NCBI GenBank assembly: GCA_014874485.1
Contig: JADBJK010000014.1
Location: 1 to 62,295 of the forward strand
Direction of reading: 5' to 3'
Length of the DNA: 62,295 bases
Source: Chloroflexota bacterium
GTDB taxonomy: Bacteria; Chloroflexota; Anaerolineae; DTLA01
Shown here: positions 8,641-38,134 of the stretch, in pieces
Numbering within the stretch: the first letter of the stretch is position 1
Layout: each line of letters opens with the position of its first letter
Translations under genes and position numbers: made by a program
The notes under the pieces: generated by a model
The model's input: only the letters and a program-made list of their open reading frames with translations
The model's database searches: none
What the model was told of the DNA's origin: nothing

Positions 8641-8664
8641 GATAGCACCTCCAGGGTATAGCAT

Positions 8665-8858
8665 TCGGCATTCGGCGGTCAGCGGTCAGCGTTCAGCGAT
8701 CAGCGGTCAGCGACCAGCAGTCAGCGATCAGCGGTCAGCGACCAGCAGTCAGCGATCAGCGGTCAGCGATCAACCTTTAGCCATTGGCCATTGGCCATTG
8801 GCCTTTAGCCGTTCGCCTGCATGTTGGGCCAATGGCTAACGGCCAAAGGCTAATGGCT
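8665..8858. repeat. Short tandem and inverted repeats inside the valS leader
   Basis: From 8665 to about 8772 the sequence is built of imperfect 7-bp units (tcagcgg, tcagcga, ccagcag). It is followed by ccattggccattggcc-type repeats and an inverted counterpart ggccaatggctaacggcc up to 8858. A related motif (ccgttagcctttggccgttg) occurs near 16881. The block lies between the T-box terminator and the valS start, so it is transcribed in the read-through mRNA. Confidence 0.8.
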
Positions 8859-8861
8859 GTG

Positions 8862-8899
8862 AAAAACAAAAACCCCCTTCGCCACAAGGACGAAAGGGG
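8862..8899 (-). terminator. T-box intrinsic terminator
   Basis: On the minus strand cccctttcgtcc pairs with the gaaggggg side around the loop, with gtttttgttttt beyond (complement of 8862-8873). This is the regulated terminator of the valS T-box. Confidence 0.85.
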
Positions 8900-9131
8900 C
8901 AAGCCTTCCGCGGTACCACCTTGCTTCCAGCCGCGACGGAATCGCGGCGGACGCTCTTGGGCTGTAACGGGCTGACCCGGGGCCGCTTACTCCGCCATCG
9001 GTTCGGCGGCCCGACTCCCAGGCGACGTTCGGCGGGTTCCGCTGCGAGGGGCTTTCAGCCGGTGGCCCCTCTTCTCTACCAGCATCCGCCGCCTACTCCT
9101 CCTGTTCGGCGTCGTTCGGTTTCGGTTGTTG
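8862..9131 (-). promoter_or_regulatory. T-box riboswitch leader of valS
   Basis: The RNA (minus strand) contains the near-invariant T-box GGTGGTACCGCG (complement of 8909-8920), which base-pairs with the acceptor end of uncharged tRNA. It is followed by a terminator stem (8874-8899) and U-rich tract (8862-8872). Upstream lies a Stem I with an AGAGA-like bulge and a GGCTGAAAGCC distal loop. In the expected position, GAAC is followed by GTC (complement of 9024-9026), a valine codon and the likely specifier. A T-box lets stalled uncharged tRNA-Val favour the antiterminator and so raise valS transcription. Confidence 0.93.
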
Positions 9132-9136
9132 GGCGG

Positions 9137-9165
9137 ATTATAGCATGGGCGCGCGGGGGTGTCAA
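9137..9165 (-). promoter_or_regulatory. Consensus sigma-A promoter for valS
   Basis: Minus strand TTGACA (9160-9165), 17-bp spacer, TATAAT (9137-9142): a full consensus match. The predicted start is near 9130, just before the T-box leader. Confidence 0.9.
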
Positions 9166-9185
9166 ATGAGTCGGGCGCCTGGGTG

Positions 9186-9413
9186 GGGCGCATTTCAGTC
9201 TGGGGGCAAGGCTGCTGCAATGGGCAGCCTCTTTCGCCGCCTGACGTAGAGGGACGGGTCTGCTTGACCTCACCTAACCCCTCCCGCACCCTCCCCTTTC
9301 CTCTCCGCCCGCGGAGAGGAAAGAGGAGGGCCGGGGTGGGGATAGGTGAAGTAAATTCCGCTCAGCAACCTGACGACGTTCGGTCATTCTCGCGCCAAAA
9401 TTGAAATGCACCC
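9186..9413. mobile_element. 228-bp MITE-like element, copy A
   Basis: Ends are inverted repeats: GGGCGCATTTCAGTCTGG at the left and ATTGAAATGCACCC at the right (terminal consensus GGGTGCATTTC). The interior carries a long hairpin, ctcccctttcctctccgc pairing with gcggagaggaaagaggag, and the flanking blocks gacctcacctaacccctccc and ggggtggggataggtg. No coding capacity. Copy B at 49646 has the same length and close sequence; copy C at 38608 is truncated. It fills the gap between the divergent valS and dnaG promoters, with its right end 15 bp from the dnaG -35 box. No target duplication was evident. Confidence 0.82.
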
Positions 9414-9428
9414 CTACCGGCGCGGCGC

Positions 9429-9458
9429 TTGACAGCCGCGATGCCCTGCACGTATAAT
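9429..9458 (+). promoter_or_regulatory. Consensus sigma-A promoter for dnaG-sigA
   Basis: TTGACA (9429-9434), 18-bp spacer, TATAAT (9453-9458), ending 26 bp before the dnaG ATG. The 228-bp element ends 15 bp upstream of the -35 box. Confidence 0.88.
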
Positions 9459-9484
9459 CTGCGGGCGAAGGGAAGGGTCCGGTC

Positions 9485-11392
9485 ATGGGCGTGGTGGACG
9501 AGATCAAGAACCGCATAGACATTGTGGATTTCATCTCGGGCTATGTGGCGCTCAAGAAGGCGGGGCGCAACTACAAGGGCCTCTGCCCGTTCCATTCCGA
9601 GAAGACGCCGTCGTTCATCGTGTTCCCCGACTCGCAATCGTGGCACTGCTTTGGGGCGTGCGGGACCGGCGGGGACATCTTCACCTTCCTGATGAAGCGG
9701 GAGAACCTGGACTTCGGCGAGGCTCTGCGTATCCTGGCGGCGCGGGCCGGCGTCCAGTTGGAGCCGGTAACCCCCGCCAAGGCCGCCGAGCAGGAGCAGG
9801 AAGAGCGCCTGTTCGCCGTGAACGCCGCGGCGGCGGAGTACTTCCACGACCTGCTTGTCTCGTCGGCGCAGGCCGAGCACGCCCGCGCTTACCTGGAGAA
9901 GCGCGGCGTAACGCCGGAATCCTGGCGGGCGTTCCAGTTGGGCTACAGCCTCAACGACTGGCACGCCCTGCAGAACCACCTGCGCGGCAGGGGCTTCCGA
10001 CACGAGGACATCGCCGAGGTGGGCCTGATCATCCAGCGCGAGGGCGGCGAGGGGTACTACGACCGATTCCGGGGGCGTCTGATGTTCCCCATCCGCGACA
10101 TCCGCGGGCGTGTCATCGGCTTCGGCGGGCGCGTGCTGGACGCCTCCGAGCCCAAGTACATGAACTCGCCGCAGTCGCCCATCTTTGACAAGGGCAGCGT
10201 CCTGTACGGGATTGACCTGGCGCGTGGCCCCATCCGCTCGCTCAACCAGGTCATCATCGTGGAAGGGTACATGGATGTCATCATGGCCCACCAGCACGGC
10301 ATCGCCAACGTCGTCGCCTCTATGGGCACGGCGCTTACGGAGACGCAACTGCGCGCCTTGTCGCGGCTGACCAAGCGGTTTGCGCTGGCGCTGGACTCGG
10401 ACGCGGCGGGGAGCGCTGCCACGCTGCGAGGGCTGGAAACCGCCCGCGCCGCGCTGGACCGGGAAGTGAAGCCCGTGCCGGTGGGTCCCGGCCTGATTCG
10501 CTTTGAGTCCAGCCTCAAGGTGGACCTGCGCATCGTAATGCTACCGCCGGGCAAGGACCCGGATGAGATCATCCGCGAGAGCCGCGAGACCTGGGATGCA
10601 CTCCTGGCCCAGGCCATTCCGCTCGTGGACTACTACTTCCAAATCGTAACGGCCGAACTGGACCTCACCACCGCCAAAGGCAAGAGCGAGGCTGTCCAAC
10701 GCCTGAAGCCTGTCCTGCAGGACATCGGCGACCCCATCCAGCGCCAACATTACATCCAGCGCCTGGCCCGCCTGGTGCGCATAGACGAGCGCACGCTGGC
10801 GGAGGCGCTTGGATCGCCGGCCCGGGCCGCCAAGGCGCGGCCTCAGCCCGAAGGCGAAGTGCCGGTTCCGGGCCGCGCCGACCGCGCCACATACGAGGAC
10901 TACGTGCTGTATCTGATTTCGCGTTCCCCGGGCGTCGTGCCGTGGGTGGGTCAAGCCCTGGCCGATGCGGGACTGCAGCCGCCCCGGCCCGACGAGTTCC
11001 GCGACCCGCGGAGCCGCGCCATCCTGGAGCGCATCTGGGAGCCGCTGGCGTCCGAGAGCGCATCGTGGCCCGATATTCAGGGCGGCCTTCCGCAGATCAT
11101 GCAGGACCATCTGGCCGAACTCGCCCAGCGGATGGGCTCGCTGCCCCCGTTGCCCGATGAACAGGTGCGCGCCGAAGTCTTCCAGACCATCCTGCGCCTG
11201 CGCCAGCAGTACCTCAAGAGCGTGCTGGCGGACCTGCGTTTCCTGTGCCAGGATGCCGAGGAGCAGCACGATGAGGAAGCCCTGGCGCAGTACACCCTCG
11301 CCATCGGGCAGCACACCCAGGAACTGCGAGCCGTTCAGAAGGCCCTCGGCGCTCGGAACGAACAGCGCGCCCCTCTCTTCCAGCGCGAATGA
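9485..11392 (+). CDS. dnaG: DNA primase
   Basis: A 635-residue DnaG-type primase that makes RNA primers for replication. The N-terminal zinc-binding domain shows CPFHSEKTPSF and HCFGACGTGGD (CHC2 type). The central catalytic core has the Toprim glutamate in VIIVEGYMDVI and the metal aspartates in LALDSDAAG. A helical C-terminal domain (from about 440) would contact the DnaB helicase. ATG at 9485 follows a gggaaggg purine run. It is followed by sigA, the classical macromolecular-synthesis operon order, here without rpsU. Confidence 0.97.
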   Translation: MGVVDEIKNRIDIVDFISGYVALKKAGRNYKGLCPFHSEKTPSFIVFPDSQSWHCFGACGTGGDIFTFLMKRENLDFGEALRILAARAGVQLEPVTPAKAAEQEQEERLFAVNAAAAEYFHDLLVSSAQAEHARAYLEKRGVTPESWRAFQLGYSLNDWHALQNHLRGRGFRHEDIAEVGLIIQREGGEGYYDRFRGRLMFPIRDIRGRVIGFGGRVLDASEPKYMNSPQSPIFDKGSVLYGIDLARGPIRSLNQVIIVEGYMDVIMAHQHGIANVVASMGTALTETQLRALSRLTKRFALALDSDAAGSAATLRGLETARAALDREVKPVPVGPGLIRFESSLKVDLRIVMLPPGKDPDEIIRESRETWDALLAQAIPLVDYYFQIVTAELDLTTAKGKSEAVQRLKPVLQDIGDPIQRQHYIQRLARLVRIDERTLAEALGSPARAAKARPQPEGEVPVPGRADRATYEDYVLYLISRSPGVVPWVGQALADAGLQPPRPDEFRDPRSRAILERIWEPLASESASWPDIQGGLPQIMQDHLAELAQRMGSLPPLPDEQVRAEVFQTILRLRQQYLKSVLADLRFLCQDAEEQHDEEALAQYTLAIGQHTQELRAVQKALGARNEQRAPLFQRE

Positions 11393-24495: not shown

Positions 24496-25295
24496 GTGTC
24501 CCTCAGGAAGACGCGAACCAGGTTGACGCTGGAGAAATGCCCGCCGGTCAGGTATGTGAGCGAGCCTTCGCGGCCGAACAGGGCGCGGGCGATGCGCTTC
24601 TCGTCCCACCCGCGGGTGTGGAGTTGCCGTATCCGCTCGTGCAGTTCCTCCAGGTAGGCGATCTTGTCCAGGATTTCCTGGCGCGGGTTCTGGCGGACGC
24701 TGCCGCTGCCCGGGAACAGGTACGAGATGTCCAGCGCCGCGAGGCGGCGGAGCGATTCCAGCGTGGCGCGGATGTCGTAGTCGGGGCGGTACGCGCGGTC
24801 CCGTCCGCCGATGAACAGATCGCCGGTGAACGCCCAGCCCATGTTCGGCTCGTAGAGGACGAGGTGGTCGGGGCTGTGGCCCGGCGCGTGGATGACGTGG
24901 AACCGATGGCGCTCGGTGAGGATTTCGCGCGGGGCTTCGCGGCCCTCCGACGGCATAGGCCATCCCCAGAAGACGCGCCGGTACAGTTGCAGGCCGATGA
25001 GCGACGGGTCGCGCAGGTAGGGCAGCGCCAGCGGGTGGGCGTAGATGGTGGCGCCGTGCTCGCGGACGATTTCGGCGTTGGCCCCGATGTGATCCTCGTG
25101 GTGGTGGGTGTTCACGATGTAGCGGACGGTGTGGCGGCGCAGCGCCGAGCAGAGTTCGCGGGCGGTGAAGTGGCAGCCCGTGTCCACCAGCAGGCCGTCG
25201 GCGAAGTAGGCCGCCGTCCAGTAGGCCGGACGCCCCAAGAAGCCCCTGGCGAGGCGGAACTTGATGACGCTGTCTATCTGCTCGGTCTGGATCAC
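24492..25295 (-). CDS. Metallo-beta-lactamase fold hydrolase
   Basis: A 267-residue MBL-fold protein. The metal motif NTHHHEDHIG satisfies HxHxDH, and later ligands are the His in HAPGHSPDHLV and the Asp in FTGDLFIGG. This form is closest to glyoxalase-II/thioesterase-like hydrolases, so a CoA- or glutathione-thioester substrate is possible but unproven. The GTG start at 25295 overlaps the upstream thioesterase stop (GTGA), and its own stop overlaps the DUF362 start. Confidence 0.9.
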   Translation of the reverse strand: MIQTEQIDSVIKFRLARGFLGRPAYWTAAYFADGLLVDTGCHFTARELCSALRRHTVRYIVNTHHHEDHIGANAEIVREHGATIYAHPLALPYLRDPSLIGLQLYRRVFWGWPMPSEGREAPREILTERHRFHVIHAPGHSPDHLVLYEPNMGWAFTGDLFIGGRDRAYRPDYDIRATLESLRRLAALDISYLFPGSGSVRQNPRQEILDKIAYLEELHERIRQLHTRGWDEKRIARALFGREGSLTYLTGGHFSSVNLVRVFLRDT

Positions 25296-25714
25296 GGGTT
25301 CTGCTCCAGCAATAGTTTCCTTCGGAACTCTTCAGGGATTGGAATCGGCTTGAACGTCTTGGGATCCATCATCACCTGCACGGTCTCGCCCTCGGCCAAG
25401 AGGGTGCCCGTGTCCTGGTTGAGGACATGGTACGCGAAGGTGAAACTGCGCTGACGGACCTGGCTGATCCACGTGCGGATGAGGATGGGGTCGTCAAAGC
25501 GGGCCGAGGCGTGATACCGGCAGTGCGCCTCGGCGATGACGAACGAGATGCCCTGCCGTTCGCGCTCGCGGAAGTCAAAACCGATTTCTCGCAGGTAGTT
25601 GACGCGCCCCACCTCAAACCAGACGAAGTAGTTGGCGTAGTACACGATGCCCTGGGCGTCGGTTTCGGCGAAGCGCACACGGAGCGTGCTTTCAGAGACG
25701 CGCGGCGATGTCAT
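25292..25714 (-). CDS. Hotdog acyl-CoA thioesterase (YbgC/FcbC type)
   Basis: A 140-residue 4HBT-family thioesterase that cleaves acyl-CoA to acid and CoA. The family signature RFAETDAQGIVYYANYF contains the catalytic Asp. The ATG at 25714 overlaps the stop of the neighbouring thioesterase gene (ATGA); the frame opens further upstream only within that gene. Second of a tandem pair that probably arose by duplication and now differs in its pocket residues. Confidence 0.93.
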   Translation of the reverse strand: MTSPRVSESTLRVRFAETDAQGIVYYANYFVWFEVGRVNYLREIGFDFRERERQGISFVIAEAHCRYHASARFDDPILIRTWISQVRQRSFTFAYHVLNQDTGTLLAEGETVQVMMDPKTFKPIPIPEEFRRKLLLEQNP

Positions 25715-26127
25715 GGGATGTGGCCCCCTCCGCTCAGGATTTGACGAAGCCATATCGGGATGGTCTGCACCTCACGGTTCTTGTTGACGCAGATGTGGCG
25801 GGTGTGGCCCGTCGCAAGGAGCACGTCGGCGGCGTTGCGCACCTCGTACTGGAAGGTGAGGCCACGGCTCCGTATTTCCGTCAGGCGCGTGTGCACGGCC
25901 ACCTCTTCGTCGTAGAAGGCCGAGTGGGAGAAGCGGACGTAGAGTTCGCTGACGGGCAGTAAGACGCCCCTGGCCTCGCACTCGGCGTAGGAGATGCCGG
26001 CGGCGCGGAAGAAATCGGCGCGCCCGGCCTCAAACCAGATGGCGTGCTGCGAATGGTGCACGATGCCCATCGCGTCCGTTTCGGCGTACCGAACTCGGAA
26101 GCGGGTTACGACTTCCGCCACAGGCAC
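25711..26127 (-). CDS. Hotdog acyl-CoA thioesterase (YbgC/FcbC type)
   Basis: A 138-residue 4HBT-family thioesterase with the signature RYAETDAMGIVHHSQHAIWF. I choose the GTG at 26127 because aaggagg lies 4 nt upstream and because the longer frame starts in an intergenic palindrome region. It begins a chain of four genes joined by 4-bp start/stop overlaps: thioesterase, thioesterase, MBL hydrolase, DUF362. Confidence 0.9.
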   Translation of the reverse strand: MPVAEVVTRFRVRYAETDAMGIVHHSQHAIWFEAGRADFFRAAGISYAECEARGVLLPVSELYVRFSHSAFYDEEVAVHTRLTEIRSRGLTFQYEVRNAADVLLATGHTRHICVNKNREVQTIPIWLRQILSGGGHIP

Positions 26128-26153
26128 GTGGCCTCCTTGCTGACGAATCCCCC

Positions 26154-26186
26154 GGAGCGGTGCGCCACGAGCGCGACGCACCGCTC
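26154..26186. repeat. REP-related palindrome beside copy 4
   Basis: ggagcggtgcg (26154-26164) pairs with cgcaccgctcc (26176-26186). It shares the GGTGCG/CGCACC core with the REP-like palindromes and lies 29 bp from copy 4, forming a two-palindrome cluster like a BIME. Confidence 0.6.
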
Positions 26187-26215
26187 CCGTGCGATGCAAC
26201 CCAGACGTGATCCTA

Positions 26216-26253: not shown

Positions 26254-27456
26254 TTACACAGCCGTCCCTGCGGTGGCCGCCTCAATCTCCTTGATGAGGG
26301 CGGGGATGACCTTGTACAGGTCGCCCACAACCCCGAAGTCGGCGATCTGGAAGATGGGTGCCGACGGGTCCTTGTTAATGGCGATGATGTACTTGGCTTC
26401 CTTCATGCCCGCCTGGTGCTGGATGGCACCGGAGACGCCGCAGGCGATGTAGAGTTCCGGATGGACGGTCTTGCCGGTCTGGCCCACTTGGTGGTCGTGG
26501 GAAATCCAGCCTGCGTCCACTGCCGCGCGGGAAGCGCCCACGGCCCCGCCGAGCAGGGCGGCCAGTTGCTCAATGAGTTTGAACCCATCGGGGCCGCCCA
26601 GTCCGCGCCCGCCGGTTACGATGACCTTGGCATCCTCCAGGTCCACCGTGTGCTTGCCTTCCTTGACGATTTGCAGAATCTTGGTCATCAGGTCGGTCTC
26701 GGACAGGTCCACCTCTACGCGGGTGATTTCGCCCGTGCGGGACTTGTCCTCGGGCAGGGCGCGCATGACGCCCGGGCGCACGGTGGCCATCTGCGGGCGG
26801 TGGCGCGGGCAGGCGATGGTGGCCATGATGTTGCCGCCGAAGGCCGGTCGGGTCTGGAGCAGGAGCCGCTCGCTCTCATCAATGTCCAGGCCGGTGCAGT
26901 CGGCGGTGAGGCCGGTGTGCAGGCGCTGGGCCACGCGCGGGGCCAGGTCGCGGCCGACGTGCGTCGCGCCGAAGAGGACGATCTCCGGCTTCTTCTCCTG
27001 CACCAGGTTGGCGAAGACCTTGGTGTAGGCATCGGTGCGGTAGTGCTCCAGCAGCGGGTGATCGGCGTGGAGCACTTCGTCGGCCCCGTACCAGATGAGT
27101 TCCTGGGCCAGGTTGTCCACGTTGTGGCCCAGGAGCACGGCGATGGCCTTGGCGCCCAGCGTGTCGGCCAGTTCGCGGGCCTTGCCCATGAGTTGGCGGG
27201 CGACCTTGGTCAGCATGCCGTCGCGCTGCTCGGCGAAGACCCACACGTTGCGGTAGTCCTCCAGCCGCACGCCGGTGGTGGGCAGTTCGCCGAGGACGAG
27301 GGCCTGCTCGGGGCACGCCTCCACGCAGATGCCGCAGGAGACGCAGGTCTCGTAGACGACGGCCACGTTCCCCTTGACTTCAATGGCTCCGAATGGGCAG
27401 ACCACCTGGCAGGTGCCACACGCTGTGCATTTTTCCTCAATGACCTTCAGTTCCAT
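26254..27456 (-). CDS. etfA: Electron transfer flavoprotein alpha subunit with N-terminal ferredoxin domain
   Basis: A 400-residue EtfA. Residues about 1-60 form a two-cluster ferredoxin domain ([15 protein letters not shown] and [15 protein letters not shown], each CxxCxxCxxxCP). The EtfA domain follows, ending in the FAD-binding block [11 protein letters not shown]...[11 protein letters not shown]...[12 protein letters not shown]. EtfAB moves electrons from acyl-CoA dehydrogenases to other carriers; ferredoxin-fused EtfA is known from the caffeyl-CoA reductase complex of Acetobacterium (CarE), where flavin-based bifurcation occurs. ATG at 27456 with aaggaggtc. Its EtfB partner lies about 5 kb upstream in the same cluster instead of adjacent. 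Confidence 0.95.
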
Positions 27457-27533: not shown

Positions 27534-28763
27534 TCATCCGAATTCGCGCATGATGGCGCGGGCCAGGCGCTGGATGCCCTCGCGGATGATCTCCGGACGG
27601 CAGTAGGAGAAGTTCAGGCGCATGGCGTTGTGATCGCCCTCGTCGGGGTAGAACGCGGCGCCGGGCACATAGGCCACCTTCTCCTCCAGCGCGGTCTTCA
27701 TGAACTCGGTGGTGTCAATCTGCGGTGGCAGGCGCACCCATAGGAACAGGCCGCCCTGGGGCCGGGTCCAGGTTACGCCGGCCGGGAAGTGTTCCTCCAT
27801 GGCCTGGAGCATGGCGTTGCGCCGCTCGTAGTAGGCTTCGCGCACTTTTTTCACATGGGAGCGCAGCAGGCCGCGGCTGCAGATGTCGTGGGCCACCATC
27901 TGCACAAAGACGCCCGTGTGCAGGTCAGCGCCCTGCTTGGCCTGCACCAGTTTGCTGATGATCTTGGACGGCGCGGTAACCCACCCGATGCGGATGCCTG
28001 GGGCCAGGGTCTTGGAGAACGTGCTCAGGTAGATGACGTTCTCCTTGTGCAGCGTCTCTATGGGGGTGATGTCCTCGCCCTCAAACCGCAGTTCGCCGTA
28101 GGGGTCGTCCTCAACGATGGGCACGCCGTACTTGGCCGCCAGGCGCACCAACTCTATGCGGCGCTCCAGGGGCAGGGTGGTCCCCGCCGGGTTGTGGAAG
28201 TTGGGCAGGACGTAGATGAACTTGACCTTGCCCTGGTGCGCCTTCAGGACAGGCTCCAACTCGTCCACGCACATGCCGTCGTCGTCCAGGGGGACGGTGG
28301 CGAATTGCGGCTCGTAGGCGCGCCAGGCTTGAAGCGCGCCCAGGTACGTGGGGCGTTCGGTGATGACCACGTCGCCCTTGTCCAGGAAGATGCGGCCGAT
28401 GAGGTCCAGCGCCTGCTGCGAGCCGTTGGTGATGATGATGTTCTCCACCTCGGCGGGGACGCCGTACTTCTGCATCTTCTCGCTGAGATACTCGCGCAGG
28501 GGCGTGTACCCCTCGGTTGCGCCGTACTGGAGCGCCTTGCTGCCGTTGGTGGTGAGGACGTACTCGCACGCCTCGCGGAACTCGCGGATGGGGAACAGTT
28601 CGGCAGCGGGGAGCCCGCCCGCGAACGAGATGATGTCGGGCTTCTCGGTGAGTTTGAGCAGTTCGCGGATGACGGAACTGGTCATCTTCACCGCGCGGGC
28701 TGCCATCTTGGCGTCCCAATCGGTGGTAACCTCGGTTTCCACAGGCTGAATGGGTAACGACAT
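27534..28763 (-). CDS. PLP-dependent aminotransferase, LysN/2-aminoadipate type
   Basis: A 409-residue fold-type I class I/II aminotransferase that exchanges an amino group between an amino acid and a 2-oxo acid. The PLP-lysine region is YLSTFSKTLAPGIRIGW; the early ISFAGGLPAAELFP block is characteristic of the 2-aminoadipate/aromatic (LysN, KAT II-like) subgroup. ATG at 28763, whose gaggagg ribosome site overlaps the end of the CoA-transferase gene 9 bp away. Its place in an acyl-CoA cluster suggests it generates a 2-oxo acid for catabolism, perhaps 2-oxoadipate, but the substrate is an inference. Confidence 0.9.
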   Translation of the reverse strand: MSLPIQPVETEVTTDWDAKMAARAVKMTSSVIRELLKLTEKPDIISFAGGLPAAELFPIREFREACEYVLTTNGSKALQYGATEGYTPLREYLSEKMQKYGVPAEVENIIITNGSQQALDLIGRIFLDKGDVVITERPTYLGALQAWRAYEPQFATVPLDDDGMCVDELEPVLKAHQGKVKFIYVLPNFHNPAGTTLPLERRIELVRLAAKYGVPIVEDDPYGELRFEGEDITPIETLHKENVIYLSTFSKTLAPGIRIGWVTAPSKIISKLVQAKQGADLHTGVFVQMVAHDICSRGLLRSHVKKVREAYYERRNAMLQAMEEHFPAGVTWTRPQGGLFLWVRLPPQIDTTEFMKTALEEKVAYVPGAAFYPDEGDHNAMRLNFSYCRPEIIREGIQRLARAIMREFG

Positions 28764-28772
28764 GGGTCCTCC

Positions 28773-29615
28773 TCATTGAGTGGTTGGATATGTCCGGGAG
28801 TCTCGTCGTTGAGATTGCATCTCCCGGTGGATGATTTCTTTCAACAATTGTGCGCGCGCCGCCCCGCCCACGGTCTCCAGTTTGCGGATGCCGAGGGGGT
28901 CAATCTCCTCGCGGAGCAGGCGCAACTCCTCGGCGGTGGGCGGCTCGGTCTGGCGCAGCGGCTGGGCCACTTGGAGCGGGAACCCCGTGCGGGCCTGCAC
29001 GTCGTCCTGCGACACGCCTGGGTGCAGCGTGAGGAGCCGCACGTGACCCTCGTGCAGGTCAAAGGTCGCCAGGTCGCTGACCAGGTACCAGTCGCGGGGG
29101 CGGTCGGGCACGTGGCCCACGCCGCTGATGAAGTCCACCGCCTCCACGAAGACGCGGGCATCGTGGCGCGGGACGTAGAGTTCCACGCGCCGGTAGATGG
29201 GCGTGATGTCGGCGATGCCGCCGCAGCCCGGCAGGCGCAACCGGGGCCGGCGCCAGTCGCCGATGCAGACGTTGTTGAAGTGGCCGCGACGGTCCACCTG
29301 GGCGGGGCGCAGGAATTCGCGCGGCTCCAGCGTGGGTAGGATTTCGCGGCAGATGGACGGGAAGTTCATGCGGCGCAGCGGGCGGTCCAGCCACATGGCC
29401 TCGTCGTGCACCAGTGACAGCGGCTTCCAGTCCAGGGTAACTGCCATGCCGACCGCCGACGCCAGCACCAGGTTGGGCGCGTAAGTGCATTTGGCGAGGA
29501 TGTAGCCGGCCAGGGTCAGGGGCGTGGACAGCCCCTGCACCACGATGTCGCCATCGCGGAGCCGCCGGCTGATGCATGTGGCGATGATTTCGTCGGGCGT
29601 GAATTCGGGTTTCAT
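28773..29615 (-). CDS. CoA-transferase family I, beta-type subunit
   Basis: A 280-residue subunit of the glutaconate CoA-transferase/IpdAB type. It contains the LRDGDIVVQGLSTPL and CTYAPNLVLASAVG strands of the family I fold and RRMNFPSICREILPTLEPRE, plus a C-terminal extension with DPLGIRKLETV. ATG at 29615 overlaps the alpha-subunit stop by 4 bp. Homologues either transfer CoA between carboxylic acids or, as in IpdAB, hydrolyse a ring-fission acyl-CoA; I cannot decide which from the sequence. Confidence 0.85.
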   Translation of the reverse strand: MKPEFTPDEIIATCISRRLRDGDIVVQGLSTPLTLAGYILAKCTYAPNLVLASAVGMAVTLDWKPLSLVHDEAMWLDRPLRRMNFPSICREILPTLEPREFLRPAQVDRRGHFNNVCIGDWRRPRLRLPGCGGIADITPIYRRVELYVPRHDARVFVEAVDFISGVGHVPDRPRDWYLVSDLATFDLHEGHVRLLTLHPGVSQDDVQARTGFPLQVAQPLRQTEPPTAEELRLLREEIDPLGIRKLETVGGAARAQLLKEIIHREMQSQRRDSRTYPTTQ

Positions 29616-30397
29616 GTCTCCAGCCACGCGCTCAAGTACTGTTGGAATCGGTCGGACTGGCAAGCGTCCACGTAGGCCACGATGGCCTCGGCGTCCAGCG
29701 GGTACAATGGGTAGCAGGATGTGGGCGCAGCGCCATGGGGCGCTTCCACCACATGGGTTACGCGCTGGCCCAGCAGGTCGGCTTCGGCCGACAGACGCGG
29801 CACCACGCGCTCGGCGGTTACGATGACGGTTCGCGCCGTCAGGCTGAGTTCCCAGTCCACGGCCAGGTTGCCGCCCAGGATGGCGTTGCCCATGGGGTCG
29901 GCTTCCAGCGCGTGGATGAGGGCGACGTCGGGCATGATGGCCGGGAAGGCGACGCAGGTCTCGCCGGTGTACGGGTCGGCGATGGTGCGCACGTCGGGTC
30001 GCACGCGCAGGAAGTCGGTGCCCACCCACGCGGGCGATGCGATGAAGCCGACGCGGGCGAGGGTCGCCCGAAGGCCGCAGGCGATGCTGGTCTCGGTCTC
30101 CTCTACGATTTCCAGCGCGCCCTCGGATGCGGCGCGGGTGAACATGGGCGCCAGGCCGAAGGCTTCCAGGCCGAAGTAGCAGGTGCGCACGCGCCGCGCC
30201 AGGCCCGCGCCCACGAGCAGGTCGGCTTCCAGGCCCAGGGTCGCGCCCAGCAGGGTCAGGCCGCCGATGCGGGCGCGGACGAGTTCGCGCACGGCGGCCA
30301 TGGGGCGGCGGTGGAGCATGAGGCCGCCGATGGCGAGGGTGCTGCCGGGCGCGATGGCCGCGATGGCCTGGGCGAGGGTGCAGGTCTTGTCCGTCAT
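29612..30397 (-). CDS. CoA-transferase family I, alpha-type subunit
   Basis: A 261-residue partner of the preceding subunit. The glycine-rich N-terminal strand GSTLAIGGLMLHRRPMA and the later ADPYTGETCVAFPAIMPDVALIHA-type segment are typical of GctA/IpdA-like alpha chains. It is linked by a 4-bp ATGA overlap to the thiolase-HAD fusion upstream and by another to the beta subunit downstream, so the three are translated as a unit. Confidence 0.85.
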   Translation of the reverse strand: MTDKTCTLAQAIAAIAPGSTLAIGGLMLHRRPMAAVRELVRARIGGLTLLGATLGLEADLLVGAGLARRVRTCYFGLEAFGLAPMFTRAASEGALEIVEETETSIACGLRATLARVGFIASPAWVGTDFLRVRPDVRTIADPYTGETCVAFPAIMPDVALIHALEADPMGNAILGGNLAVDWELSLTARTVIVTAERVVPRLSAEADLLGQRVTHVVEAPHGAAPTSCYPLYPLDAEAIVAYVDACQSDRFQQYLSAWLET

Positions 30398-32304
30398 TTT
30401 GCCCCCTCCACCCTGCTCGGCAGCCGCCCATCCAGCAGCGCCGTGATGCGCGGCAGGTCCTCTATGCGCGGGATGGCGAAATGGGCGTCGTTGGGGTCAT
30501 CGCTGCCCACGAGGACGGTGAGCATGCCCATCGCCCGCCCGGGCACCAGGTTGCGCGGCATATCGTCCAGGAGCAGGCACTCCTCGGCGCGCGCGCCCAG
30601 CAGTGCCAGCGCCTGTTGGTAGGCTTCCGGGTCCGGCTTGTTTACATAATGAGTTGCCTTGATGTCTATGATGGCAGAGAAGTGGTGCGCCACGCCGAGG
30701 AGTTCTAGCACGCGGCGGGCGTGGGCCTCGCTGGCGTTGGTGAACACGACCTTGGTCAGCGGGAGCGCGGCCAGGGCCCGGTCCAGCGCGGGATTGGGCG
30801 CGATGAACTGCTCCAACGGCAGGTTGTGGACGTAGGCCAGGTAGTCGTCGGGGTCCACGCCGTGGTGGAGCATGAGGCCGCGCAGGGTGGTGCCGTACTC
30901 GCGGAAGTAGCGGTCGCGCAGCGCCACGATGTCGGCCTCGGCAAAGCCGCACCGCTCGCGCATGTACTGCTTGATGAGGCGGCCCACCTCGTCCATGAGG
31001 CCCGACGTCATGGGGTACAGGGTCTGATCCAGGTCAAACAGGGCGAATCGGAGCGGCGGCGGGTCGGACTTTGCGGCGCGCGTGCGCGGTCTGGCCGATG
31101 CGCTGGCCTTCGCGCGTTTGCGCAGCACATCGGGCTCGGACGCCAGCAGGACGGCGGCGCCATTGGCCCCCGCGCCGCACAGGGTCGCCACGCCCAGGGC
31201 CGCCCCACGCCGTCGCATCTCGTAGGCCAGCGTCATCAGGATGCGCGCGCCCGTAGCGCCGACCGGGTGGCCGATGGCGACCGCGCCGCCGTTGACGTTG
31301 ACGCGGTCGGGGTCAATGTCCAGTTCGCGGATGCAGATGAGGGGCACCGCGGCAAACGCTTCGTTGATTTCCCACAAGTCCACGTCCTGGGGCCGCAGGC
31401 CGCGCTCGGCCAGCAGTTTGCGGGCGGTGTCGGCGGGGACGGTGGAGATGCGCGGCGGCTCGTCGGAGACCTGGGCCGCGCCGACGATGAAGGCCAGCGG
31501 CTCCAGGCCCAGCGCCCGCGCCTCGGCCTCGTCCATGAGCACAAGGGCCGCAGCGCCGTCGTTGAGGCCCGGCGCGTTGCCCGCCGTTACCGTCCCCTCG
31601 GGCGAGAAGGCCGGGGGCAGGGCGGCCAGTTTTTCCAGCGTGGTGTCGGCGCGGGGCTGTTCGTCCGCGTCCAGGACAGTCTCCGTTTTGCCGACCTTGA
31701 CCGTGGCGGGGAGGATTTCGTCGCGGAACGCCCCCGCCTCCTTGGCGGCAAAGTAGCGCCGATGGCTGCGGAGCGCCCACTCGTCCTGCATGGCGCGGGT
31801 GATGCCGTAGGCTCGGGCGGCGTCGTTGGCGTAGTCGCCCATGTGCTTGCCCTGGAGCGGGCAGGTGAGCGACGCGGTCAGGTCGTCCACCAGCGGGCCG
31901 TCGCCCAGGCGGTAGCCCCAGCGGGCGCGGGGCAGGATGTAGGGCGACTGGCTCATGTTCTCCATGCCGCCGGCGACGACCCAGCGGGCGCGGCCGGTCT
32001 GGACGAGCAGGTCGCCCCAGATGACGGCGTTGAGTGCCGAGGTGCAGGCCGTGTTCAGGGACATGGCGTTCATGGCGACGGGCAGGCCGGCACGCAGGGC
32101 GGCCTGGCGCGCGGGCACCTGGCCCACGCCTCCGCCCACGCAGTGGCCCAGGATGAGGTGGTCGCGCTCGTCGGGCGCGAGGGCCACGCGGGAACAGGCG
32201 GCGCGGATGGCCCACGCGCCCAGTTCCACGGCGGGCACGTCCTTTAGCGCGCCGCCGAAACGCCCGAACGGCGTCCGAACGGCGGATACGATGACCGTTG
32301 CCAT
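30394..32304 (-). CDS. Thiolase fused to a HAD-superfamily phosphatase
   Basis: A 636-residue two-enzyme protein in one uninterrupted frame. Residues about 1-385 are a thiolase (nucleophilic Cys in NTACTSAL, GGMENMSQSP, NEAFAAV, catalytic NGGAVAIGHPVGATG and CGAGANG) that cleaves or forms 3-oxoacyl-CoA. A basic Ala/Lys/Arg linker (about 390-410) leads to a HAD hydrolase of the pyrimidine-5'-nucleotidase/SDT1-like group: motif I DLDQTLYP, motif II TNAS, motif III Lys in NKPDPEAY, motif IV LLLDDMPRN. I know of no standard enzyme with this architecture. It lies between etfB and the CoA-transferase genes. A sequencing frameshift joining two genes is possible but would have to remove a stop, start and ribosome site cleanly. 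Confidence 0.9.
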   Translation of the reverse strand: MATVIVSAVRTPFGRFGGALKDVPAVELGAWAIRAACSRVALAPDERDHLILGHCVGGGVGQVPARQAALRAGLPVAMNAMSLNTACTSALNAVIWGDLLVQTGRARWVVAGGMENMSQSPYILPRARWGYRLGDGPLVDDLTASLTCPLQGKHMGDYANDAARAYGITRAMQDEWALRSHRRYFAAKEAGAFRDEILPATVKVGKTETVLDADEQPRADTTLEKLAALPPAFSPEGTVTAGNAPGLNDGAAALVLMDEAEARALGLEPLAFIVGAAQVSDEPPRISTVPADTARKLLAERGLRPQDVDLWEINEAFAAVPLICIRELDIDPDRVNVNGGAVAIGHPVGATGARILMTLAYEMRRRGAALGVATLCGAGANGAAVLLASEPDVLRKRAKASASARPRTRAAKSDPPPLRFALFDLDQTLYPMTSGLMDEVGRLIKQYMRERCGFAEADIVALRDRYFREYGTTLRGLMLHHGVDPDDYLAYVHNLPLEQFIAPNPALDRALAALPLTKVVFTNASEAHARRVLELLGVAHHFSAIIDIKATHYVNKPDPEAYQQALALLGARAEECLLLDDMPRNLVPGRAMGMLTVLVGSDDPNDAHFAIPRIEDLPRITALLDGRLPSRVEGAK

Positions 32305-32389: not shown

Positions 32390-33181
32390 TTACCCCTGGA
32401 TGATGTTGCGAGCCTTGAGCCGGCTCAAAATCTGGCGCGCGGCCTCTTCGGGCGGCGCGGTGATGGTCTCGCCGGGCTCCTTGGCCGGCGGGCTGAAGGA
32501 GCGCCGCACCTGCGTGGGCGAGCCTTCCAGTCCCAGCGTACCGGGTTCCGCGCCCAGGTCTTTGGACGTCCACAGCGTTACCTGGCGCGCGCGGTAGGCC
32601 GTAATGATGCCCGGTGCGGTGGGGTACCGGGGCTTGTTGGCCTCCTTGGTGATGGTGAGCAGGGCGGGCAACGGCGCTTCAATGATCTCGTAGCCGTCCT
32701 CCAGTTTGCGTTTGGCGCGCACGCTGCCGTCGGTGAGCGTGAGTTCGGTTACGTAGGTGATCTGGGGGATGCCCAGATACTCGGCCAACTGCGGGCCGAC
32801 CTGCGCCGTGTCGCCGTCAATGGCCTGGCGGCCGGCGAGGATGAGGTCGTACTCGCCGATCTTCTTGATGGCCATGCCCAGGGTCGTGGCGGTGGCCCAG
32901 GTGTCGGCACCCGCGAAGGCGCGGTCGGACAGCAGGATGGCTTCGTCGGCGCCCATGGCCAGGGCCTCGCGCAGCGCGTCGTCGGCCTGGGGCGGGCCCA
33001 TGGTGATGACCACCACGTGGGCGCCCAATGTGTCCTTGAGTTTCAGCGCCTCCTCCAGCGCGTTCTTGTCCTCCGGGTTGATGATGCTGGGCACCCCTTC
33101 GCGGATGAGCGTGCCGGTGCGGGGGTCCAGTTTGACCTCGGTGGTATCGGGTACCTGTTTGATGGTTACGACGATCTTCAT
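32390..33181 (-). CDS. etfB: Electron transfer flavoprotein beta subunit
   Basis: A 263-residue EtfB. Typical features are the N-terminal VVTIKQVPDT, the NPEDKNALEEALKLKD block and the AGRQAIDGDTAQVGP signature that contacts AMP or the second FAD. Start: ATG at 33181 with aggaggg upstream; the longer frame runs into the previous gene. It lies 37 bp after the acyl-CoA dehydrogenase, its likely electron donor; EtfA is 5 kb downstream in the same cluster. Confidence 0.96.
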   Translation of the reverse strand: MKIVVTIKQVPDTTEVKLDPRTGTLIREGVPSIINPEDKNALEEALKLKDTLGAHVVVITMGPPQADDALREALAMGADEAILLSDRAFAGADTWATATTLGMAIKKIGEYDLILAGRQAIDGDTAQVGPQLAEYLGIPQITYVTELTLTDGSVRAKRKLEDGYEIIEAPLPALLTITKEANKPRYPTAPGIITAYRARQVTLWTSKDLGAEPGTLGLEGSPTQVRRSFSPPAKEPGETITAPPEEAARQILSRLKARNIIQG

Positions 33182-33218
33182 ATTTGGCCCTCCTGTGATT
33201 GCTCCTGCGCGGCTCGCT

Positions 33219-34391
33219 CTAGCGGATGCGGACGCCGACTTTGCGGAACAGGTTGGTGGCGATGACAAGGCGCTGGATTTCGTTGGTGCCCTCAAAGATG
33301 CGGGTGATGCGGGCGTCGCGATACATCCGCTCCACGGGGTACTTCTTCATGTAGCCCATGCCGCCGTGGATTTGCACGCACTTGTCCACGCAGCGATCCA
33401 ACACTTCGGAGCCGAAGACCTTGCACATGGCGGCGTAGGTGCTGAAGTCGCGGTCCATGTGGCCCGAGTCCATCATCCAGGCGGTGCGGTACACGAGCGA
33501 GCGCAGCGCCTCAATCTCGGTGGCCATGTCGGCGATCATCCACTGGATGGCCTGCTTTTGGGCGATGGGCTGGCCGAACTGGTAGCGGTTCTTGGCGAAG
33601 TCAATGGCCGCCTCCAGGGCCGCCTGCGCGCCGCCGAGGCAGCCCGCGCCCAGGCTGATGCGCCCCACGTCCAGCGTCTTCAGGGCGGTGAGGAACCCTG
33701 CGCCGAACTGCCCCAGGACGTTCTCCTTGGGCACGACGCAGTCCTCAAAGATGATTTCCGCGGTGGATGAGCCACGGATGCCCATCTTGGTCTCCTTGGT
33801 GCCCACGCGGAAGCCGGGGAAGGTCTTCTCCACGATGAAGGCGGTAACGCCGCCGCGCGCGCCCAGGGCCGGGTCCGTTACGGCGAACACGGTGATGATG
33901 TCGGCGATGTCGCCGTTGGTGATCCAGATTTTGGTGCCGTTGAGGATGAAGTTGTCGCCATCGCGGACGGCGCGGGTCTGGATGGCGGCGGCATCCGAGC
34001 CGGCGTTGGGTTCGGTGAGGGCGAAGGCGGCGATCTTCTCGCCACGGGCCAGCGGCGTGAGGTACTTCTCCTTCTGCTCCGGCGTGCCGTCCAGGTAGAT
34101 GGCCATGGCGCCGATGCCGGTGTGGGCGCCGATGACGGTGGCCGTGGAGGCGCAGACCTTGTTGAGTTCCTCCATGAGGATGCAGTAGCCGATCTCGCCC
34201 GCGCCCGCGCCCCCGTACTCCTGGGGGAAGGGCACGCCCATCAGGCCCAGTTTGCCCGCCTTGCGGATGACGTCCATGGGGACTTTTTCTTCTACGTCAA
34301 TCTCCTCGGCGATGGGCGCGACTTCGTTTTGCGCGAACTCGCGGATCATGCGGCGAAGGAGTTCGTATTCTTTGGGAAATGTGAAGTCCAT
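33219..34391 (-). CDS. Acyl-CoA dehydrogenase, short-chain type
   Basis: A 390-residue FAD-dependent acyl-CoA dehydrogenase that makes the trans-2-enoyl-CoA and passes electrons to ETF. Signatures: FALTEPNAGSDAAAIQT, the WITNG FAD-contact, QIHGGMGYMKKYPVERMYRD and the C-terminal IFEGTNEIQR holding the catalytic Glu, as in butyryl-CoA dehydrogenase-type enzymes. The full family length is present. It is followed by etfB at 37 bp. Confidence 0.96.
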   Translation of the reverse strand: MDFTFPKEYELLRRMIREFAQNEVAPIAEEIDVEEKVPMDVIRKAGKLGLMGVPFPQEYGGAGAGEIGYCILMEELNKVCASTATVIGAHTGIGAMAIYLDGTPEQKEKYLTPLARGEKIAAFALTEPNAGSDAAAIQTRAVRDGDNFILNGTKIWITNGDIADIITVFAVTDPALGARGGVTAFIVEKTFPGFRVGTKETKMGIRGSSTAEIIFEDCVVPKENVLGQFGAGFLTALKTLDVGRISLGAGCLGGAQAALEAAIDFAKNRYQFGQPIAQKQAIQWMIADMATEIEALRSLVYRTAWMMDSGHMDRDFSTYAAMCKVFGSEVLDRCVDKCVQIHGGMGYMKKYPVERMYRDARITRIFEGTNEIQRLVIATNLFRKVGVRIR

Positions 34392-34462: not shown

Positions 34463-35248
34463 CTACCGGTCTTCAAACTTGGCCTGGCGCTTCTGCAGGA
34501 AGGCGGCCACGCCTTCGCGCATGTCGTGCGTCTCGCAGAGTTTGGCGAAGTGCTCGGCCTCGTAGAGCAGGGCGTCTTGCAGGTCCATCTCCAGGCCCTT
34601 GTTCACCGCGTCAATGATGGCGGCGAGGGGCAGGGCCGACTTGGACACGATCTTCTTGGCGAGGCCCTTGGCTTCCTTGATGACGTCGCCGGCGGGCACG
34701 ACCTTGTTCACCAGGCCGATGCGGGCGGCCTCCTGGGCGGTGATCATGTCGCCCGTGAACAGGAGTTCAAAGGCCTTGCCCTTGCCGACGTAGCGCGGCA
34801 GGCGCTGGGTGCCGCCCCAGCCGGGGATGATGCCCAGGTTGATTTCGGGCTGGCCGAAGCGAGCGCGGTCCGAGGCGATGCGGATGTGGCAGGCCATGGC
34901 CAACTCGTTGCCGCCGCCCAGGCAGACGGCGTTGATGGCGGCGATGACCGGCTTGGGGCTGGCCTCAATCTTGCTGAACAGTTGCTGGCCTTTGACGACG
35001 ACTTCCTTCGCGTCGTCGTGGCCTTTCAGGGCGTTGATCTCGTTGATGTCGGCCCCTGCGACGAAGGCGAACTGCCCCGCGCCGGTGATGATGATGGCCT
35101 TGACCTCGGGGTTCGCCAGCACCTCGTCAAAGGCGGCGTTGAGGTCCATGACCGTTCGGGTATCAAAGGCGTTGGCCGGCGGATGGTCAATGGTCAGGAT
35201 GGCGATGCGCTCCTCAACGGAGACCTTGACATACTGATACTCACCCAT
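34463..35248 (-). CDS. Enoyl-CoA hydratase/isomerase family protein
   Basis: A 261-residue crotonase-fold enzyme adding water to trans-2-enoyl-CoA. The oxyanion-hole segment FVAGADINE and both catalytic glutamates (GGGNELAMAC and QPEINLGIIPGWGGTQRL) are present, which favours true hydratase activity. ATG at 35248. It lies between the hydroxyacyl-CoA dehydrogenase and acyl-CoA dehydrogenase genes, giving a complete beta-oxidation round. Confidence 0.95.
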   Translation of the reverse strand: MGEYQYVKVSVEERIAILTIDHPPANAFDTRTVMDLNAAFDEVLANPEVKAIIITGAGQFAFVAGADINEINALKGHDDAKEVVVKGQQLFSKIEASPKPVIAAINAVCLGGGNELAMACHIRIASDRARFGQPEINLGIIPGWGGTQRLPRYVGKGKAFELLFTGDMITAQEAARIGLVNKVVPAGDVIKEAKGLAKKIVSKSALPLAAIIDAVNKGLEMDLQDALLYEAEHFAKLCETHDMREGVAAFLQKRQAKFEDR

Positions 35249-35346: not shown

Positions 35347-36576
35347 TTAGGCCGTGTACTCCATGAAGCCCTTGCCGACCTTCTTGCCGAGGTGGCCGGC
35401 GCGGACTTTGGTCTTGAGCAGGCGTGCCGGACGGAACCGCGGGCCGTACTTGGCCGTGAACTCCTCCAGTTTCTGCAGGACGTAGTCCAGGCCCAGGGTG
35501 TCGGCCAACTGGAGCGGGCCCATGCGCTCGCCCTTGTAGGTCATGCCGGTGCCCGCGATCATGGCCATGTCAATGTCGTTGACGGCGGCGATGTGCTCGG
35601 TTACGCACAGGACGGCCTCGTTGATCATGGGCATGATGAGCCGCTCCCACGAGAACTCGGTGCCCGTCTGGGCCTTGCCCTCGGCCTGCACTTCCTTGAT
35701 CATCTTGATGACGGCCTCGGAGTCGCCGGTGCCCGGGTAGTCGTAGAACCCGGCGCCGGTCTTCTCGCCGAAGCGCTTGGCCTGCACCAGTTTGAAGAAC
35801 AGGTAGGCCGGGGTCATGCGCTCGCCGTACTCGGAGTACAGGTACTCGCCCACGTCGGCGCAGATGTCAATGCCCAGCATGTCCATGAGTTGGAAGGGGC
35901 CCATGGGCCAGCCGAAGTCGCGCATGGCGGCGTCAATGTTGGTGGCCGTCTCGGTGCCTTCCTGCAGGGCGTACACGGCCTCGTTCAGGTAGGGCATCAG
36001 CAGGCGGTTGACCAGGAAGCCGGGGCACTCTTGCACGACCACCGGAATCTTGCGCAGGCTTTCGGTGAACATCACCACGTCGTCAATGGTCTCCTGGGTG
36101 GTGTCCAGGCCGGGGATGATCTCCACCAGTTTCATGACGTGGGCGGGGTTGAAGAAGTGCATCCCGATGACCTTGCCCGGGCGCTTGGTGGCCGCGCCCA
36201 TCTCCGAGATGGACAGGGCGCTGGTGTTGGAGGCGAAGATGGTGTGCTCGGGGCAGACCTCGTCCAACTCGGCGAAGACGCGCTTCTTGATGGCCATCTT
36301 CTCGGGGACGGCCTCAATCACGATGTCCACGTCCTCAAACCCGTCGTAGGTGAGGGTGGACGTAACGAGGTCCAGTTTGCTCTGCATTTCGCCCGCGCTC
36401 ATCTTGCCCTTTTCCACGCGGCTCTGGTAGATGTTGCGAATGGTCTCCATGCCCTTGTCCAGGGCGGCCTGGTCAATGTCCTTGAGGACGACGGGCAGGC
36501 CGGAGAAACTGATGACTTGGGCGATGCCCCCGCCCATGGCGCCTGCACCTACCACTGCGGCTTTGAAAATGTACAT
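35347..36576 (-). CDS. 3-hydroxyacyl-CoA dehydrogenase with doubled C-terminal domain
   Basis: A 409-residue NAD-dependent 3-hydroxyacyl-CoA dehydrogenase. The N-terminal Rossmann domain has VVGAGAMGGGIAQV and the catalytic HFFNPAHVMKLVEII and ECPGFLVNRLL. It is longer than the ~285-residue single-domain enzyme because two 3HCDH C-terminal domains follow (about 190-285 and 305-405), fusing what is a dimer contact in short forms. ATG at 36576 with aggaggg; the upstream open frame has no ribosome site. Confidence 0.95.
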   Translation of the reverse strand: MYIFKAAVVGAGAMGGGIAQVISFSGLPVVLKDIDQAALDKGMETIRNIYQSRVEKGKMSAGEMQSKLDLVTSTLTYDGFEDVDIVIEAVPEKMAIKKRVFAELDEVCPEHTIFASNTSALSISEMGAATKRPGKVIGMHFFNPAHVMKLVEIIPGLDTTQETIDDVVMFTESLRKIPVVVQECPGFLVNRLLMPYLNEAVYALQEGTETATNIDAAMRDFGWPMGPFQLMDMLGIDICADVGEYLYSEYGERMTPAYLFFKLVQAKRFGEKTGAGFYDYPGTGDSEAVIKMIKEVQAEGKAQTGTEFSWERLIMPMINEAVLCVTEHIAAVNDIDMAMIAGTGMTYKGERMGPLQLADTLGLDYVLQKLEEFTAKYGPRFRPARLLKTKVRAGHLGKKVGKGFMEYTA

Positions 36577-36934: not shown

Positions 36935-38134
36935 CTATTTGCGCTCAATGATGATGGTGCCGCCCAGCCCGCCGCCGACGCAGGCGGTGGCGAGGCCGAA
37001 CTGGACGTCGCGCTTGATCATCTCGTGCATCAGGGTAACGACGATGCGGGTGCCGGTGCAGCCGACGGGGTGGCCCAGGGCGATGGCGCCGCCGTTGACG
37101 TTGACCTTGCTCCAGTCCCACCCCTCGTCTTCCAACTCGCGGCCGCAGGCGATGGTCTGCGCAGCGAAGGCCTCGTTGATTTCAATCAGGTCAATGTCCT
37201 TGAGCGTGAGGCCCGCCTTCTTCAGGGCGATGGGGGTGGAGATGGCCGGGCCCAGGCCCATGATCTCCGGCGGCAGGCCGGCGTAGGCGTAGGCGCGGAT
37301 GTAGGCCCACGGCTTGAGGCCCAGCACGTCGGCCTTTTCCTTTGACATAACGAGGGTGGCCGCCGCGCCGTCGCTGATGGGGCAGGCGTTGGCCGGGGTT
37401 ACGACGCCGCCCTTCTTGAACACGGTGGGGTACAGCGCGGCCTTCTGCACCGACAGGGCCGGGTTGATGCACTCGTCCTGCACGATTTCCTCGTAGGCCA
37501 CCTCCTGACCGGCCACCTTCTTGGACACCCGGAAGGGGACGATTTCATCCTTGAAGCGGCCGGTGCGGGTGGCCATGAAGGCTTTCTTGTGCGATTCCAC
37601 CGCGTACTTGTCCAGTTCCTCGCGGGTGAGGCCGTACATCATGGCGAGGTTCTCGGCGGTGTAGCCCATGATCATGTCGCACACGGGGTCGGTGAGGCCC
37701 TCCCACAGGGTGTCAATGAAGGTGGTGGAGCGGAGTTTGAGGCCCCAGCGTGCGCCGCGCACGCAGTAGGGTGCGGTGGACATGCTTTCCACGCCAGCGC
37801 ACAGGTACAGGTCGCCGTCGCCAGCCTTGATGGCCTGGGCGGCGTTGGTGATGGCCATCATGCCCGACACGCAGTTGCGCTGGACGGTGTAGCCGGGGAC
37901 GTGGGTGGGGATGCCGGCCATGAGGGCGGCGACGCGGCCGATGTTGGGCGCATCGCTCTGCTGGCCGATGCACCCCATGATCACGTCGTCAATCTGGTTG
38001 GCGTCCACGCCGGTGCGCTGGATGACCTCCCGCAGCACCGCGGCTGCCAGGTCCTGCGCCGGCACGTCGCGGAACGCTCCCCCATGGCTCCCGATGGCCG
38101 TTCTGACTCCTCCGACGATGACAACTTCTTTCAT
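36935..38134 (-). CDS. Acetyl-CoA acetyltransferase (thiolase)
   Basis: A 399-residue thiolase that splits 3-oxoacyl-CoA with CoA or condenses two acetyl-CoA. Active-site residues: Cys in QRNCVSGM, His in GGAIALGHPVGCTG and Cys in ACVGGGLG; NEAFAAQT is intact. First gene of the 17-kb minus-strand acyl-CoA cluster. ATG at 38134 with aaaggaggcg; the frame extends upstream to 38209 without a ribosome site. The promoter at 38564-38592 leaves a ~420-nt leader holding a candidate operator. Confidence 0.95.
   Translation of the reverse strand: MKEVVIVGGVRTAIGSHGGAFRDVPAQDLAAAVLREVIQRTGVDANQIDDVIMGCIGQQSDAPNIGRVAALMAGIPTHVPGYTVQRNCVSGMMAITNAAQAIKAGDGDLYLCAGVESMSTAPYCVRGARWGLKLRSTTFIDTLWEGLTDPVCDMIMGYTAENLAMMYGLTREELDKYAVESHKKAFMATRTGRFKDEIVPFRVSKKVAGQEVAYEEIVQDECINPALSVQKAALYPTVFKKGGVVTPANACPISDGAAATLVMSKEKADVLGLKPWAYIRAYAYAGLPPEIMGLGPAISTPIALKKAGLTLKDIDLIEINEAFAAQTIACGRELEDEGWDWSKVNVNGGAIALGHPVGCTGTRIVVTLMHEMIKRDVQFGLATACVGGGLGGTIIIERK

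Follow-up and report, generated by a model that had tools for sequence, protein, structure and literature searches.

A thiolase fused in frame to a nucleotidase-like HAD phosphatase in a genus of Anaerolineae

The attachment of HAD domains to enzymes of acyl-CoA metabolism has been described in ACAD10, which combines HAD, kinase, and ACAD domains, and in which a HAD domain with an incomplete DxD motif restrains the kinase (PMC11342911). Free-standing HAD proteins include the XMP phosphatase (XMPP) of Arabidopsis and its SDT1 homologues (PMC8616923). In the stretch of DNA analyzed here, 62,295 nucleotides of an Anaerolineae genome (hereafter, the window), a HAD protein of the latter type is encoded in the same gene as a thiolase. 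Both domains belong to known families, and it is their pairing that is new. A limited search of the open-access literature found no description of an enzyme of exactly this layout, in agreement with a sequence-only reading of the window, which knew of none.

The fused gene and its domains

The gene (Table 1) has an ATG start and contains no internal stop codons. In the protein, Pfam recognizes Thiolase_N (residues 4–259), Thiolase_C (268–387), and a Hydrolase/HAD domain (from 421 to 593–599) only, and thus neither of the kinase and ACAD domains that are joined to the HAD of ACAD10. Residues 1–387 match the NCBIfam model TIGR01930 with 416.1 bits (curated cut-off 240.55), covering positions 1–384 of the 385 in the profile, and the best equivalog model, NF006086, is below its cut-off (478 against 526). 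The C/N/H/C set of the thiolases is conserved in an alignment of 20 rows, and the nearest solved relatives of this half are acetyl-CoA acetyltransferases, such as 7cw4.

The HAD half matches TIGR01993 (Pyr-5-nucltdase, NCBIfam) with 190.8 bits against a curated cut-off of 142.9, covering positions 3–183 of 183. Motifs I–IV are complete (D424/D426/T428, T522, K556, and D581), with motif I reading DLDQT, and hardly vary, if at all, among 60 homologues. The nearest solved relatives are nucleotidases, that is, XMPP itself (7ef6) and the yeast SSM1/SDT1 (3onn). The open frame, the Pfam and NCBIfam matches, and the two alignments thus bear out the sequence-only reading, which had described a complete thiolase and a complete HAD domain of a nucleotidase-like subfamily, joined by a linker in a single frame and retaining all of their catalytic motifs. 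In the AF2 model (20-row alignment), the pLDDT is mostly 80–98 over the thiolase, becomes low within the linker from residue 408, and is mostly below 50 in the HAD half, for which the alignment had a single homologue and the model is of no use.

Table 1. Features of the fused gene and its cluster in the window; dN/dS values are from the comparison of two species of the genus (G000 with G001).
Feature	Coordinates	Strand	Remarks
Two thioesterase-like ORFs	25292–25753, 25711–26199	-	Slight overlap as called; 25292–25753 is of the 4HBT type (Pfam)
ETF alpha, two N-terminal 4Fe-4S-type motifs	26254–27456	-	Motifs predicted from the sequence; conserved in the cluster
Class I/II aminotransferase	27534–28763	-	Conserved in the cluster
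CoA-transferase-like subunit B	28773–29615	-	Starts MKPEF; the presumed site of the catalytic Glu holds Ala
CoA-transferase-like subunit A	29612–30397	-	Start overlaps the stop of the fusion by 4 bp
Fused thiolase-HAD gene	30394–32304	-	636 aa, single open frame; same fusion in G001 and G002
HAD phosphatase domain, residues 417–636	30397–31056	-	TIGR01993; dN/dS 0.14
Ala/Arg/Lys/Pro linker, residues 389–416 (~28 aa)	31057–31140	-	dN/dS 0.89; 3-aa in-frame indel
Thiolase domain, residues 1–388	31141–32304	-	TIGR01930; C87, N314, H346, C376; dN/dS 0.13
ETF beta	32390–33184	-	Start approximate
Acyl-CoA dehydrogenase	33219–34391	-	
Enoyl-CoA hydratase	34463–35248	-	
3-Hydroxyacyl-CoA dehydrogenase	35347–36573	-	Start approximate
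Second, unfused thiolase of the cluster	36935–38134	-	

Maintenance and origin of the fusion

The fusion is real and maintained, with both domains under purifying selection and a linker that drifts almost neutrally (Table 1). The congener G001 carries the whole fusion in a single frame, with 89% identity to the window protein, and in a second congener, G002, the gene is split over two contigs, with the contig that holds the junction in frame. The sequence-only reading had left room for a stop and start between the domains, or for the absence of any homologue sharing the fusion, and this doubt is settled by the two congeners. For the window genome and both congeners, the assemblies are drafts of many contigs, one of them broken inside the gene itself, which might suggest that two genes were joined by an artefact of sequencing or assembly, but the frame is kept in two further genomes, in one case across a divergent linker with an indel of three amino acids. 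The near-neutral linker, the in-frame indel, and the purifying selection on both domains are not what a sequencing error would leave, and the artefact, rejected on the evidence of the congeners, has a negligible probability. No internal ATG, GTG, or TTG is conserved in the genus in the linker or near the start of the HAD, the GTG in the linker of G000 being absent from G001, which makes the production of a separate HAD from an internal start unlikely. This lack of a conserved start, together with the dN/dS pattern and the indel, also contradicts the idea of a dead second domain.

The fusion is found in three of the 396 Anaerolineae genomes searched, which are the three of this set that belong to the genus, and in none of the other 393. 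A sample of 400 genomes of the phylum contained no fusion besides the query at E<=1e-125. When contigs were scanned for a locus spanning both domains, only L054 (Anaerolineae MAG-31, coinciding with G074 and of the same class as the window genome) was recovered, and its pair is unfused. The long open frames that precede other HADs were considered as possible extra domains, and by eye look like overlapping out-of-frame sequence.

The unfused relatives suggest how the gene may have arisen. At L054, the thiolase (7992–9173) and the HAD (9170–9811) are separate genes overlapping by 4 bp, followed by CoA-transferase-like A, which starts at 9812. The gap between thiolase and HAD is likewise -4 in G007 and is +8 in G018, and the two are separated by one gene in G049 and by three in G059. 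In all five of the other genomes whose thiolase has at least 57% identity, the HAD lies next to it or no more than four genes away, and these thiolases group with the fused ones in a single clade (support 100/99). No HAD was found near the sister thiolases at the Bacillota and Actinobacteria loci. The tree of the HADs groups them mostly by family, which is consistent with vertical descent, with a backbone too poorly resolved to show which HAD is nearest to the fused copy. The co-regulation of the two activities, which had been proposed from the sequence, is well supported by these adjacent or overlapping genes of related families.

The presence of separate neighbours in the same order, some of them overlapping, indicates that the fusion merged two coupled genes, which were probably coupled in translation. 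In the simplest account, the stop between them would have been lost in the ancestor of the genus, together with a small change that adjusted the frame. It is how widely the unfused state is spread, rather than a rooted reconstruction, that points to fusion, and not fission, as the direction of the change.

The gene cluster and the role of the HAD domain

The cluster has an order common to fused and unfused loci, which is thiolase 2, HBD, ECH, ACAD, ETF-beta, thiolase, HAD, CoA-transferase-like A and B, aminotransferase, ETF-alpha, thioesterases, and an MBL-fold protein. This order is fullest in G001, G002, and G018, and less complete in G007 and L054; G018 may have an additional ORF after ETF-beta and before the thiolase. 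In the cluster, scans for promoters and terminators did no better than on shuffled sequence. The two N-terminal motifs of ETF alpha are ferredoxin-like, of the CxxCxxCxxxCP type, and the ACAD next to ETF beta has its best score, below the cut-off, against acryloyl-CoA reductase; the ETF and the ACAD might together form an electron-bifurcating ETF/reductase pair. Between the two ETF genes lie the fusion, the CoA-transferase-like pair, and the aminotransferase.

The structures closest to the A/B pair are 5mzw–5n03, labelled "glutaconate CoA-transferase family", followed by 6co6/6con. The former we take to be AibAB of Myxococcus, a decarboxylase, and the latter IpdAB; the open-access literature yielded nothing directly relevant on AibAB. 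Subunit B and its homologues carry the motif APNxxxxSA[IV]G, in which the Ala aligns with an Ala in the 5n00 chain. IpdAB, too, lacks the catalytic Glu54 of GCT (PMC5380842). Instead of transferring CoA, the pair may act as a hydrolase or a decarboxylase.

The best explanation of the fused gene, held with reasonable confidence, is a bifunctional protein in which a thiolase and an ancestral NMP-type phosphatase were merged from two neighbours of an operon for the degradation of acyl-CoA and amino acids. The N-terminal half would be a functional acetoacetyl-/3-ketoacyl-CoA thiolase, probably an oligomer, that cleaves or makes 3-ketoacyl-CoA, and the C-terminal half an independently folding HAD phosphatase that would keep the activity of its orthologues throughout the class. 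The predicted reaction of the latter is most probably the hydrolysis of a nucleoside monophosphate or a similar small phosphate ester, as suggested by the family resemblance to solved nucleotidases (1e-27 to 1e-18) within a promiscuous superfamily. The fused copy is the only protein of the window genome above the cut-off of TIGR01993, and so presumably does the job of the free-standing HAD. The main consequence of the fusion would be a fixed 1:1 dose of the two activities, in addition to their co-localization. No signs of substrate channelling between the halves were found, and they may be separated by proteolysis in vivo.

The surroundings of the HAD gene in other genomes raise the alternative of a phosphatase dedicated to the pathway, which would take phosphate off a nucleotide derived from CoA, an off-product of the phospho-acyl-CoA kind, or one of the cofactors of the cluster (FMN or PLP), so that the fusion would mark a real functional step. 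Acyl-CoA or aminotransferase neighbour types (same strand, within six genes of the HAD) recur at its side, with at least one type at 30 of 60 loci and at least three at 22, and with at least two in 12 of 33 families, although these loci, their genes called by a simple homology-ranked ORF picker, were drawn from the better HAD matches rather than at random, and the fractions are not population estimates. In G086 and G013, the HAD still adjoins CoA-transferase-like A, though with no thiolase at its side. However, acyl-CoA or aminotransferase neighbours are absent from half of the loci sampled and from about half of the families, which indicates that the HAD also acts outside the acyl-CoA pathway; it is widespread in the Anaerolineae both inside and outside these clusters, and a substrate dedicated to the thiolase is not required. 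A kinase partner of the LvaA/ACAD10 type is not evident either, the only APH match in the window genome being a weak one on a different contig, and a phospho-hydroxyacyl-CoA route like that of LvaA and ACAD10 was rejected for want of a convincing kinase. The dedicated phosphatase is thus an unlikely, albeit credible, reading. A role in the repair of CoA or a cofactor is possible, though nothing specific points to it, and the hydrolysis of a CoA-linked nucleotide, put forward like CoA repair in the sequence-only reading, is likewise conjectural.

Other HAD clusters hold D-components of 2-hydroxyacyl-CoA dehydratase, an M55 D-aminopeptidase, a PALP-family enzyme, and an EamA transporter, which suggest amino-acid fermentation. 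At five loci of families f42 and f29 (L155, L185, L186, L169, and L170), genes for 2-hydroxyglutaryl-CoA dehydratase D-components, assigned by cluster membership with one protein per group checked in Pfam, lie downstream of the thioesterases. That the HAD is a dedicated accessory enzyme of acyl-CoA and amino-acid fermentation in the Anaerolineae, with a side product of the CoA-derived or phospho-acyl kind as its substrate, seems distinctly improbable; were it true, the fusion would bring to light a step of dephosphorylation or repair not yet described for metabolism of the beta-oxidation type. Given the precedent of ACAD10, in which a HAD on an acyl-CoA enzyme restrains its partner domain (PMC11342911), the domain might instead be a regulatory appendage that has little activity as a phosphatase. 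The HAD of ACAD10 is without the second Asp of its DxD, whereas here motif I, the motif II Thr, the Lys, and the acidic motif are all preserved, as they are across the 60 homologues, and the score against TIGR02247, the model of phosphatases like the N-terminal domain of epoxide hydrolase, is far below the cut-off (40 against 125.4), which leaves this regulatory role very improbable.

Comparison with known systems

Together with the conserved neighbourhood, the pairing of the thiolase with the HAD provides a Rosetta-stone link between an uncharacterized HAD, widespread in the Anaerolineae, and the degradation of acyl-CoA and amino acids, and thus a small hypothesis on the substrate of this HAD and on metabolite housekeeping in the class. 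The unfused thiolase and HAD of L054/G074, G007, and G018 are homologous genes in the same order and cluster, from which the fusion differs in being one gene instead of two. The thiolase half conforms to the acetyl-CoA C-acyltransferase family (TIGR01930, 7cw4) in its full-length match and C/N/H/C set, to which the fused protein adds a C-terminal HAD. This HAD resembles the SDT1- and XMPP-type proteins of TIGR01993 (3onn, 7ef6) in its score and full motifs, and differs from them in forming the C-terminal part of a thiolase, rather than standing free. ACAD10 is alike in having a HAD domain attached to the machinery of acyl-CoA oxidation, but its partners are an ACAD and a kinase, in place of a thiolase, and the DxD is complete only in the present protein; the HAD of ACAD10 presumably belongs to a different subfamily. 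As fusions of HAD domains with acyl-CoA enzymes are already known from ACAD10, the gene of the window represents a new pairing of known parts.
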